Source: Thermocrinis ruber (GTDB lineage Bacteria > Aquificota > Aquificia > Aquificales > Aquificaceae). Taken from it: a stretch of DNA of 64,000 bases. Positions 58,915-61,835 of the stretch are shown piece by piece; within the stretch, counting starts at the first letter, position 1; each line of letters begins with the position of its first letter. The notes under the pieces were generated by a model. It saw only the letters and a list, made by a program, of their open reading frames with translations. It ran no database searches and had not been told where the DNA came from. The position numbers and the translations under genes are program-made. The stretch spans positions 62,001 to 126,000 of the forward strand of contig NZ_CP007028.1 of NCBI RefSeq assembly GCF_000512735.1, written 5' to 3'.

Positions 58915-59327
58915 AGGAAGGAAAGATACTTGGGCTTGCTCTTTAGATGCTCCAGCAGAAGGTGGTTTTCTCTGCTTTTTTGTCTCCAGTGCTTTCTCCT
59001 TTTTCTATAAATTTCCCTTAGATATTCCTTTAGTTTTAGGCTCGGATATTTGCCCTTGGCAACCTTGTGCAAATGCCACCACCACTTTTCTATGGGCTGG
59101 CTTTCATCGTCCTCCAAGGGCTCATCGCTGGATTCCATGAGCTCTATGAACCTGTGTACGTTTTGAAATAGCTTTCTGTCTGCCTTGATCACGTATGGGC
59201 TTTCTTCCAAACCCTCCTGATGGATCCTCTCCCTCAGGGAAATTATAAAGTTGGGATAGCCCACTCCATAGTTCAGAAGCATTTCTAACTCTGCGAAGTA
59301 GATGTAATCAATCTCTAAGCTTACCAT
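58902..59327 (-). CDS. Hypothetical protein between lipA and pheA
   Basis: A 141-residue protein I do not recognise. It starts with YIYFAELEMLLNYGVGYPNFIISLRERIHQEG, has an acidic middle (SSDEPLEDDESQP), a WWWHLHKVAKG stretch and a strongly basic C-terminal third (EYLREIYRKRRKHWRQKSREN). It has no signal peptide or TM segment, so it is cytoplasmic. It overlaps lipA by one base (TAATG) and pheA by 13. That tight fit suggests a real, coupled gene. Confidence 0.7.
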   Translation of the reverse strand: MVSLEIDYIYFAELEMLLNYGVGYPNFIISLRERIHQEGLEESPYVIKADRKLFQNVHRFIELMESSDEPLEDDESQPIEKWWWHLHKVAKGKYPSLKLKEYLREIYRKRRKHWRQKSRENHLLLEHLKSKPKYLSFLWKR

Positions 59328-60160
59328 TAGAGATAATTATAAAACACTCTCTCTGCCATATAGGAGCTTCTAACATTGGGACCACTGAAGACATGGCTAA
59401 AGCCCAGGCTGAGGGCAATCTCTTTTAACCTTTCAAACTCCTCTTGGGTGTAAAGCTTAACCACTGGGTGATGCCTCTTGGAAGGTTGGTAATACTGCCC
59501 AATGGTTAACACATCACACCCTACCCTTCTTAGATCTTTCATAACTTCCACGATCTCTTCCTCCCTTTCTCCAAAGCCCAGGATGAGGGCAGACTTGGTT
59601 ATGATGTTTGGGTTGAGTTCCTTTGCCCTTTTTAAAAGTTCTAAGCTTCTTTGATAATCCGCACCCTTTCTGACCCTCTGATATAGTCTTGGTACCGTTT
59701 CCACATTGTGGGCTAACACATCGGGCTCCGCCAAGAGGACAGTTTTTAAAGCTTGGTGAGAGCCACCAAAATCGGGCACAAGAACCTCCACCTTGATGTT
59801 CTGGATGTTTTCCTTTAAGACCCTTATGCATTTGGCAAACTGTCCTGCTCCACCATCCTCCAGGTCATCCCTGGTGGGGGAGGTGATTACCACATACCTG
59901 AGGTTTAAAGTCTTAACCGCTTCCAAAAGGCGGTAGGGCTCCTCTGGGTCCAGGGGTTCCGGATTTCCCCTCTTTAAGTTGCAAAAACTGCAAGCCCTCG
60001 TGCATTGATTTCCAAGGATCATAAAGGTGGCAGTGCCGGAGCCAAAGCATTGAGAGATGTTGGGACATCGGGATTCTTCGCAGACGGTATGTAGGCTTGT
60101 CCTTCTTAAAAGGGCCTTCAGTTGGTGGGTTTTGCTCAAAACCAAAAGGGGCTTAGCCAT
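59327..60160 (-). CDS. lipA: Lipoyl synthase
   Basis: Radical SAM enzyme that inserts two sulfurs into octanoyl groups on lipoyl proteins. The 277 residues hold the N-terminal auxiliary cluster motif CEESRCPNISQC, the radical SAM motif CTRACSFC, and the C-terminal GPNVRSSYMAE with the required RSSY. The ATG at 60160 is preferred over a TTG or later frame extension. A TAATAT box (60168-60173) ends seven bases upstream. Confidence 0.95.
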   Translation of the reverse strand: MAKPLLVLSKTHQLKALLRRTSLHTVCEESRCPNISQCFGSGTATFMILGNQCTRACSFCNLKRGNPEPLDPEEPYRLLEAVKTLNLRYVVITSPTRDDLEDGGAGQFAKCIRVLKENIQNIKVEVLVPDFGGSHQALKTVLLAEPDVLAHNVETVPRLYQRVRKGADYQRSLELLKRAKELNPNIITKSALILGFGEREEEIVEVMKDLRRVGCDVLTIGQYYQPSKRHHPVVKLYTQEEFERLKEIALSLGFSHVFSGPNVRSSYMAERVFYNYL

Positions 60161-60185
60161 TAGGACAATATTATCACAGAACCCA

Positions 60186-60214
60186 TTGACACACAAGAGT
60201 TTTAAGGCTAAAAT
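60186..60214 (+). promoter_or_regulatory. Consensus-like promoter of the TnpB-like gene
   Basis: TTGACA (60186-60191), a 17-base spacer and TAAAAT (60209-60214) end nine bases before the ATG at 60224. It is among the best sigma-70 promoters in the window, so the gene is probably expressed from its own start and not by readthrough. Confidence 0.75.
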
Positions 60215-60223
60215 CTAAGCTTA

Positions 60224-61798
60224 ATGTTTGTTAGCTTACAGTTCAAGCTTGAAATGAAAAAGGAAGACAAAGAAAAACTCATAAAGCTAATGCGCAAGCA
60301 ATCCTCCGCCATCCGAGTTGCATACAACATGCTAAAGGAGTTGGAAAAAGAGAAAACAAAAAATCCACACGCCCAAATATACCACAGACTAAGACAGCTA
60401 TTTCCTGAGTTGCCAACAAGATACATTGACTCAGCCATTTACAAAGCTAAACAATATCCCACCGATAAACCAGTGGTGTTTGGAAGCAAAAGACTTTTTG
60501 AAAAACTCTGTAAAAACCACCTTACAGGGAAAGCAAGGGAAAAACTTAAAAAACAATGGAGAGAATTAAGACAGGGAACATTGATTGCCATAGGTTCAAA
60601 ACATAAAACCGCACAGGGTAATCTACTACTCAGGTTTACGGAACTGAATGGAAAACTGCATCTAAGAATTACCACAGGAAGCAGAGAGTTTATCTACGCC
60701 AAAGTGTTAAGAGAACCCAGCAACAGCAAAGACAAGTGGCTCACCTTTATGGCTATGCTTTTAGAAAGCTGGCAAACAAAAAACTACTTTGCCTATACAG
60801 TGGAGTTAAAGCTAAGAGATGGAGAGATTTATGGGAGTGTATCCTTTGAAATCCCAATGCCTAAAGTGAAACACACAAAAGAGAACGGAGTAATAGCCAT
60901 AGACATAAACGCATCACCCATACACTTAGCCATAGCGGAAGTGTCAAAAACTGGAGAACTACTAAGCTATCAAACAATCAGCTTACACCACCTTTTAGGA
61001 CTTTCTCAAAACAGCAAAGACCATCAGGAGTGGATATTAGCCCATCGGATAGTAGATTTAGCCATTCAGAAAGGTAAAGCAATAGCAATAGAAAACCTAA
61101 AGAAACTCAAAAAAGGAATGCGTGGAGATGGGAAAGCTGAGTTAAGAAAAAGACTTCATCAGTGGAACGCCAAAAAGTTTTTGCAAAAGCTAAAAAGGGT
61201 AGCAATGTTAAAGGGAGTGGAAGTGATAGAGGTCAATCCTGCCTATACATCAATCATAGGCATGCTAAAGTATGCACCACAGTTGCACATAGACAAAGAC
61301 GTAGCGGGTGCTTATGTGATAGGAAGAAGGGCACTGGGCTTTAAAGAGGACATGCCTGAGAATTACGAAAGGCTGCTAAAAGACAAAGCATATTTAGAGT
61401 TTGCCCTAAAGAGGTATGAAAAAAGGGAAGAGGAACTTAGAGAACTTACAGAGAAGGAAAGCAACGAATACAAGAAAAACGCACTAAAAAGCGAACTAAG
61501 GAGTGTAGAGAATGCAAGAAAGCTATTAATCAATCTCATACAAAGCCTTCAGAGTGAGCCAAGCTCCTGTGAGGGAGCCAATGGAAGGAATCCCAAGCAG
61601 GGAAGGGTGGCAAAAACTACCCTTCAAAGTGCTTGGCAAGTTCTGAAGGTAGCCCTCCTCTTCCCTATTCTTGGAAAGGTCTTACCAAGGGACCTTTCCC
61701 CTCTGAAGCCAGTGTTGGTGGAAGGGTTGTGGGATAGGGTGAGGAGTAGGTTAGTTCCCTTAGAGGCTGGGGGGACGGTCCCAACAAGGGATTTTTAG
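60224..61798 (+). CDS. tnpB: TnpB-like RuvC nuclease (IS200/IS605 OrfB family) without zinc ribbon
   Basis: A 524-residue OrfB/TnpB relative. RuvC residues are visible: Asp227 (AIDINASPIHLAIAEV), Glu290 (AIAIENLKKLKKGM) and Asp359 (DKDVAGAYVIGRR). In usual TnpB proteins a four-Cys zinc ribbon lies between VNPAYTS and the last Asp. Here only about 15 residues without Cys (IIGMLKYAPQLHI) separate them, so the ribbon is absent. No TnpA gene is adjacent. The last 80 codons are Gly/Pro-rich and overlap a set of strong hairpins, so the true protein end may matter less than the RNA. It sits between lipA and thrC. Confidence 0.88.
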   Translation: MFVSLQFKLEMKKEDKEKLIKLMRKQSSAIRVAYNMLKELEKEKTKNPHAQIYHRLRQLFPELPTRYIDSAIYKAKQYPTDKPVVFGSKRLFEKLCKNHLTGKAREKLKKQWRELRQGTLIAIGSKHKTAQGNLLLRFTELNGKLHLRITTGSREFIYAKVLREPSNSKDKWLTFMAMLLESWQTKNYFAYTVELKLRDGEIYGSVSFEIPMPKVKHTKENGVIAIDINASPIHLAIAEVSKTGELLSYQTISLHHLLGLSQNSKDHQEWILAHRIVDLAIQKGKAIAIENLKKLKKGMRGDGKAELRKRLHQWNAKKFLQKLKRVAMLKGVEVIEVNPAYTSIIGMLKYAPQLHIDKDVAGAYVIGRRALGFKEDMPENYERLLKDKAYLEFALKRYEKREEELRELTEKESNEYKKNALKSELRSVENARKLLINLIQSLQSEPSSCEGANGRNPKQGRVAKTTLQSAWQVLKVALLFPILGKVLPRDLSPLKPVLVEGLWDRVRSRLVPLEAGGTVPTRDF

Positions 61799-61808
61799 AA
61801 CAGCCTCC
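61555..61808 (+). ncRNA. Candidate omega RNA (guide-RNA scaffold) at the 3' end of tnpB
   Basis: Perfect stems follow one another: GCTCC/GGAGC (61563-61567 with 61574-61578); CCAAGCA/TGCTTGG (61593-61599 with 61630-61636) enclosing AAGGGT/ACCCTT (61603-61608 with 61619-61624); GGAAAGGTC/GACCTTTCC (61673-61681 with 61691-61699, 9-base loop); and GAGGCTG/CAGCCTC (61763-61769 with 61801-61807), which spans the stop codon. TnpB nucleases use a structured RNA from the 3' end of their own gene. The exact ends are inferred. Confidence 0.6.
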
Positions 61809-61812
61809 GGGT

Positions 61813-61818
61813 TATAAT
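61813..61818 (+). promoter_or_regulatory. -10 box of thrC
   Basis: TATAAT 17 bases before the thrC ATG, at the edge of the TnpB 3' element. There is no clear -35 or Shine-Dalgarno. Confidence 0.5.
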
Positions 61819-61835
61819 TATTGTGTAGCTTGCTC

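Follow-up and report, generated by a model that had tools for sequence, protein, structure and literature searches.

Our analysis suggested that a tnpB-like gene of the hot-spring bacterium Thermocrinis ruber belongs to a non-autonomous element, in which the gene for a TnpB protein without zinc ribbon and an overlapping omega (guide) RNA lie between the inverted repeats of a DDE-type (PF01609) insertion sequence (IS). We give this reading a probability of about 0.7. The gene is present in the window, a stretch of 64,000 nucleotides of the T. ruber genome (contig NZ_CP007028.1, positions 62,001 to 126,000, forward strand), and coordinates given without a contig are those of the window. The parts of the reading visible in the sequences are the copies, the repeats, the target duplications, the empty sites, the IS partner, the covarying RNA, the selection, an NCA motif at the target and a second clade. 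TnpB has been viewed as an accessory of Y1 and serine-recombinase transposons, with a role in retention that is tied to scarless excision.

The tnpB element carries inverted repeats and duplicates its target

An earlier note on the window had described the gene as solitary. This did not hold, since the complete 1.52-Mb genome carries six full tnpB copies, 87-95% identical and located at unrelated sites, and partial ones: a deletion derivative of the element (C1:336775-337081) and two solo guide-RNA copies (C1:532977 and C1:1194052). A 45%-identical tnpB relative lies at C1:903157, and a covariance model of the first RNA domain (R1) detects eight genomic copies. The 3' end, ..GGGATTTTTAGAACAGCCTC, is common to the aligned copies, and the 5' end of most of them, GAGGCTGTTCTAAAAATC, is its reverse complement; these terminal inverted repeats are 18 bp long and perfect. 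Direct repeats of 9-13 bp adjoin the element ends in 20 of the 38 distinct insertions, compared with a mean of 0.6 and a maximum of 4 when left and right flanks were paired at random (1000 trials).

Next, we compared the insertions with empty sites in related genomes; the relatives named in our second collection are Thermocrinis and Hydrogenobacter assemblies. In same-genus genomes the empty sites hold a single copy of the duplicated 10 bp for copies c976 (GTTTTATCCC) and c1282, and they reveal that the window copy and c635 inserted without duplication. The site of the window copy, between lipA and thrC, is empty at base level in at least two related genomes, G054 (L099) and G056 (L102), where it reads ATATTATCAC and GGGTTATAA on the two sides of the insertion point. 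This comparison, which the earlier note had proposed, delimits the element to 60177-61807. Of the two possibilities left by that note, a mobile element or a retained host gene, the first is borne out by the multiple copies and the second is contradicted by the empty site in at least two relatives. The note had missed the end structure, namely inverted repeats of DDE type and, next to them, target duplications in the sister copies; its other observations on the protein were correct.

60177..61807, plus strand: whole inserted element, 5' inverted repeat missing (six-copy alignment and empty sites; junctions ambiguous by 1 base)
60163..60177, plus strand: left flank, GGACA followed by ATATTATCAC, that is, the one-sided NCA motif and then the 10 would-be-duplication bases, unduplicated (empty sites in G054 and G056)
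61790..61807, plus strand: 3' terminal inverted repeat GATTTTTAGAACAGCCTC, with which the guide-RNA scaffold also ends (its exact reverse complement forms the sister 5' ends; shared with the DDE IS)

By their aligned copies, these ends are not of IS200/IS605 anatomy. Hairpin ends lacking both inverted repeats and target duplications are not what the tnpB elements have, although the window copy by itself shows no duplication, and no Y1 transposase accompanies them: the Y1_Tnp profile (PF01797) found no match in the whole complete genome, and there is no tnpA beside the window tnpB, as had been noted before. It could still be argued that this is an ordinary IS200/IS605-type (IS1341-like) TnpB-only element, mobilised by Y1 in trans and with incidental repeats, because elements of the wider ribbon-less family end in hairpins of IS200/605 type and the window copy has neither a duplication nor a 5' repeat. 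We consider this quite improbable, given the perfect 18-bp repeats and the 9-13-bp duplications, which are shared with an intact DDE IS (see below), and given the lack of a Y1_Tnp match in the genome. The duplications confirmed by empty sites refute such an origin for the element family, and it stands only for the window copy's own event.

An intact DDE insertion sequence has the same ends

The sister genome G054 contains, at locus L139, a 934-bp element with an intact 278-aa DDE transposase (PF01609, 2e-12). This IS bears the same inverted repeats as the tnpB element (of which the window copy has no 5' repeat), and it is flanked by a perfect 10-bp duplication, GCGAAACAGT, next to AGCA, in line with the 9-13 bp next to TGNCA of the tnpB copies. 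Five further genomes have fragments and miniature inverted-repeat transposable elements (MITEs) of the L139 type, among them a composite that has an omega-RNA end (L141), and this IS also has MITE-like derivatives lacking omega RNA. Repeats, duplication and target motif are therefore those of an IS4/IS5-like DDE IS, except that the tnpB element encodes no transposase. Because the same repeats enclose an intact DDE transposase in G054, the tnpB element is best taken as a non-autonomous passenger of the L139-type IS or of a close relative. Two other copies were observed in different contexts: one, 86% identical, within an 88-kb viral contig (L289, IMGVR_UViG_3300042858_000011), and one (L140, 517-2402) interrupted by another small element with ends GATGTCAACTTTT..AAAAGTTGACATC.

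The window gene encodes a ribbon-less RuvC protein

The window gene is an intact open reading frame of 524 aa, located between lipA (59327-60160, minus strand) and thrC (from about 61821, plus strand).

60224..61798, plus strand: tnpB-like gene, ribbon-less RuvC protein (reading frame, profile matches, model, 32 relatives)
60902..60904, plus strand: RuvC-I Asp227 codon (invariant in 32 relatives)
61091..61093, plus strand: RuvC-II Glu290 codon (invariant in 32 relatives)
61235..61300, plus strand: NPAYTS to Asp359, the place of the zinc ribbon, with 15 residues between and no Cys; ends at RuvC-III Asp359 (61298-61300)
60186..60214, plus strand: element promoter TTGACA-17-TAAAAT (conserved in sister copies)

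Its product matches the NCBIfam profile TIGR01766 (TnpB-related; 60.4 bits, cut-off 32), and scores 47 with the guided_TnpB profile, below the cut-off of 100. The RuvC D-E-D triad is intact, as the earlier note had read it: D227 and E290 are invariant in the 32 relatives, and K358-D359 is at least 90% conserved among them. Also in agreement with that note, the 15 residues between NPAYTS (338-343) and D359 contain no Cys, so a CxxC..CxxC ribbon does not fit. The zinc ribbon expected between RuvC-II and RuvC-III (TNB) is missing family-wide; ribbons are found in many but not all TnpB proteins (PMC10711439).

An AlphaFold model built on the 32-sequence alignment (predicted local distance difference test score 80.9) places D227 and E290 within or next to strands and D359 where a helix begins. 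A Foldseek search with this model returned Cas12f first, followed by Cas12k, ISFba1 TnpB, ISDra2 TnpB and Fanzor2, with moderate TM-scores (0.3-0.4), as expected of flexible multidomain proteins. With the covarying stems described below, these matches support the earlier proposal of a ribbon-less, probably RNA-guided nuclease with a guide RNA derived from the 3' end of its own gene.

The promoter, which the earlier note had also identified, matches at 11 of 12 positions, and TTGAC[AG] and TAAAATC are retained in seven aligned element copies. Since the -10 box ends about 10 bases before the ATG (60209-60224), the tnpB mRNA is probably leaderless.

An intact reading frame with its promoter, in a genome without matching transposase, could also point to a domesticated host regulator or nuclease (TldR-like) between lipA and thrC. 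This is very unlikely: the RuvC triad is intact, unlike that of the RuvC-dead TldR proteins, at least two related genomes have no tnpB at this site, and the genome carries six copies at unrelated sites.

In the same genome, about 300 bases separate copy c931 from a reading frame that resembles another type of TnpB (G000:C1:933105-934064, minus strand). In addition, inverted-repeat-like 18-mers with 3 mismatches are found at G000:C1:906186 and C1:913696 (L049), about 16 bases from CRISPR-like repeats and flanking apparent cas genes.

The 3' end of the gene overlaps a predicted guide RNA with covarying stems

The 3' 266 nucleotides fold with -126.4 kcal/mol (z = -5.6), a value that none of 200 shuffles reached, and they include the perfect 9-bp stem (61673-61681/61691-61699) of the folded element that the earlier note had recognised.

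61542..61807, plus strand: omega (guide) RNA scaffold overlapping the gene 3' end (fold z, covariation in 34 sequences, -10 box upstream in 6/8 solo copies)
61545..61650, plus strand: first RNA domain, with helix 1 (61545-61555/61640-61650), helix 2 (61559-61564/61631-61636) and a hairpin (61600-61605/61620-61625) (compensatory changes; model R1)
61657..61744, plus strand: second RNA domain, a long helix (61657-61671/61731-61744) around the stem 61673-61678/61694-61698 (covariation)
61754..61776, plus strand: third RNA hairpin, TTCCCTTA/GGGGGGAC, in the conserved GGTTAGTTCC..GGGACG core (covariation, shared core)

The covariation check that had been suggested for these stems was carried out on 34 sequences, eight of them gene-less, and 63 predicted pairs. 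The pairs are formed in 96.9% of the alignment cells, compared with 40-66% after a shift of the partner by 1-3 columns, a figure biased in favour of the structure, which was derived from the same alignment. Double-sided changes occur in 22 of the 63 pairs (119 cells, against a shuffled mean of 41), and such changes are evident on inspection: in the solo copies GCCAAG/CTTGGC becomes CTGGA/TCCAG. Moreover, 6 of the 8 solo RNA copies have kept a TATAAT-like box some 15 bases ahead of the point where the RNA begins, and in the copy alignment the RNA border coincides with the element border. The core GGTTAGYTCC..GGGRCG is common to the RNA of the IS200/605-type relatives, whose tail before the guide, ..ACCAGG, is here replaced by the inverted repeat. 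An Rfam scan of the window locus gave no match. A pairing of GAGGCTG (61763) with the 3' CAGCCTC (61801) was considered and left unused, as several solo copies do not keep it.

Note that the RNA fold overlaps the reading frame, so one could suppose that it merely mirrors codon conservation of the C-terminus. This is hardly credible and is refuted by the eight solo copies without gene, in which compensatory changes maintain the fold. Furthermore, the synonymous divergence (dS) falls where gene and RNA overlap, as expected from the extra constraint imposed by the RNA.

Between the six full copies (codons 1-440), the ratio of nonsynonymous to synonymous divergence (dN/dS) is 0.07-0.13 at a dS of 0.24-0.99; judged by these values, the copies are old, diverged and under purifying selection. 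This bears on the alternative that gene and RNA are passive cargo trapped between IS repeats, with no role as nuclease or in retention. Non-autonomous passengers are common, and this IS does have other MITE-like derivatives without omega RNA. We nevertheless regard passive cargo as unlikely, since the dN/dS is about 0.1 at a dS of up to 0.99, the catalytic residues are kept, the RNA changes are double-sided, and gene-less copies preserve the fold, mostly with the -10 box just upstream.

A one-sided target motif and a candidate TAM

The left duplication starts just after CA in 19 of the 20 duplication-bearing insertions (17 of 17 in a first count), mostly within TGTCA or TGGCA, and no comparable motif is seen on their right. 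The motif recurs on the corresponding side of IS-only copies, which have no tnpB, and of a 33%-identical IS in G001, a genome without match to the window-type TnpB. The NCA motif is therefore the transposase's own target preference, and the idea that TnpB itself sets it was dropped as the main explanation. On these alignments, the target chosen by the transposase has a TGNCA-type motif on one side, directly adjoining the duplication. In six insertions (L213, L216, L222, L115, L270 and L141) this NCA motif lies exactly 10 bases left of the element and the right flank does not match, perhaps because of recombination between copies.

In the empty site the motif is directly 5' of the guide-matching sequence, where the target-adjacent motif (TAM) of TnpB must lie, and we infer that TnpB uses the TGNCA-type motif as its TAM. 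For the two insertions without duplication, the empty-site sequence 5' of the guide likewise has CA as its last bases (ATCA and TTCA), which is suggestive only.

61808..61823, plus strand: predicted guide segment CGGGTTATAATTATTG, about 16 nt of flank DNA (by analogy with ISDra2; same sequence after ATCA in the G054 and G056 empty sites)

For cleavage by ISDra2 TnpB, the first 12 bases of the guide are important (PMC10097598). As most duplications are 9-12 bp long, the left edge of the occupied locus would by analogy be largely spared from cutting, with the 12- and 13-bp duplications borderline.

Repeat ends were gained at least twice

We then placed the end types on a tree of the ribbon-less family, assigning them only where copies could be compared. 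The relatives in Aquificota, Bacillota, Chloroflexota and others have hairpin ends, often after AGGAGG, where their ends are readable. The earlier note had treated the ribbon loss as peculiar to the window gene; instead, it is older than the repeat ends and ancestral to a wide family. Since the other clades keep IS200/605-type hairpin ends, the inverted-repeat ends are derived, and we rejected the possibility that they are common to the whole ribbon-less family. At loci L189-L197, L203-L207 and L284-L288, IS200/605-type relatives stand directly after AGGAGG (Shine-Dalgarno-like), often immediately ahead of a host start codon, and GGAGG may serve as their TAM.

The inverted-repeat ends occur in two separated clades, which were joined in 0 of 200 bootstrap trees. 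A single origin was thus rejected, at least two gains being needed. The repeats of the second clade (G039) match those of a 1265-bp element whose putative transposase is a different one. This protein has no Pfam match; its assignment rests on a weak IS982 match (1e-6, below the cut-off), on its location between the repeats and on DDE-like motifs recognised by eye. A solo RNA of this clade (L312) is preceded by TTTGTCA and has a 10-bp duplication. By the tree, the same re-ending arose independently in this second TnpB clade.

Relation to known systems

Bacterial TnpB-only elements have been stated to lack inverted repeats and target duplications, whereas Fanzor elements were described with both (PMC3627910), a picture extended for eukaryotes (PMC10711439). 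As the Fanzor elements do, the window-type elements combine a TnpB-like nuclease with repeat-flanked, duplication-making, often non-autonomous transposons; the Fanzor hosts are eukaryotic or viral. With ISDra2 TnpB of the IS200/IS605 family (PMC8612924, PMC10097598) they share the RuvC D-E-D nuclease fold and, in the empty site, a short motif on the 5' side of the target. Unlike it, they have no zinc ribbon and no tnpA, their ends are inverted repeats with duplications in place of Y1 hairpins, and the candidate motif is TGNCA instead of TTGAT. The ribbon-less proteins of thermophiles (TIGR01765/TIGR01766; Caldanaerobacter, Sulfurihydrogenibium and others) belong to the same protein family, with the same NPAYTSxIGxLKYAP..KDxA, no Cys ribbon and the GGTTAGYTCC RNA core; these have hairpin ends (..ACCAGG) located after AGGAGG, while the window-type RNA tail is the repeat ..TTTTTAGAACAGCCTC. 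IscB loci have stand-alone trans-acting omega RNAs, guide copies without nuclease gene as here, although here these are repeat-flanked, duplication-making transposons.

Proposed mechanism and significance

We propose the following model, which takes up the retention and drive model of TnpB (PMC11870625, PMC8612924). The DDE transposase, when present, would move the tnpB element in trans and place it about 10 bp from TGNCA. Transcription through the right end would then produce an omega RNA with the new flank as guide, and TnpB with this RNA would recognise TGNCA plus guide in element-free copies of the locus and cut them, so that repair could copy the element in. The occupied locus would offer the motif and usually 9-12 matching bases at the left edge, and the full guide without motif at the right edge. 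Self-cutting should therefore be limited. Gene-less solo omega RNAs with the conserved -10 box would use TnpB in trans.

Several observations weigh against this reading. A DDE_Tnp_1 (PF01609) transposase was sought across the window's genome and none was found, so mobility there would be past, or would need a lost or incoming IS. About half of the 38 insertions have no target duplication, and the window copy, by empty-site comparison, has neither duplication nor 5' repeat. In addition, a TAM role of the motif for TnpB is putative, since the transposase itself chooses targets that carry it; the relatives without inverted repeats appear to use GGAGG, and in one copy of the second clade (L202) the motif is on the 3' side.

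In the openly accessible literature (subscription papers being outside our scope, and priority uncertain) we found no description of a bacterial TnpB on DDE ends. The broader proposal, to which we give even odds, is that the bacterial TnpB-omega module twice exchanged Y1-type ends for those of different DDE ISs, and that the transposase motif TGNCA became or matched the TAM, leading to RNA-guided homing and to solo guide-RNA transposons that depend on the nuclease in trans. What is new is the ends, by which bacterial TnpB would be carried on target-duplicating, cut-and-paste DDE elements, twice, with guide-only derivatives. The family would also represent a natural zinc-ribbon-less nuclease from heat-loving hosts, and its TAM can be predicted directly from the target motif and the border of the guide. 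If true, the TnpB module can pass between unrelated transposition systems, as inferred for the eukaryotic Fanzors, and this switch would be testable in bacteria.
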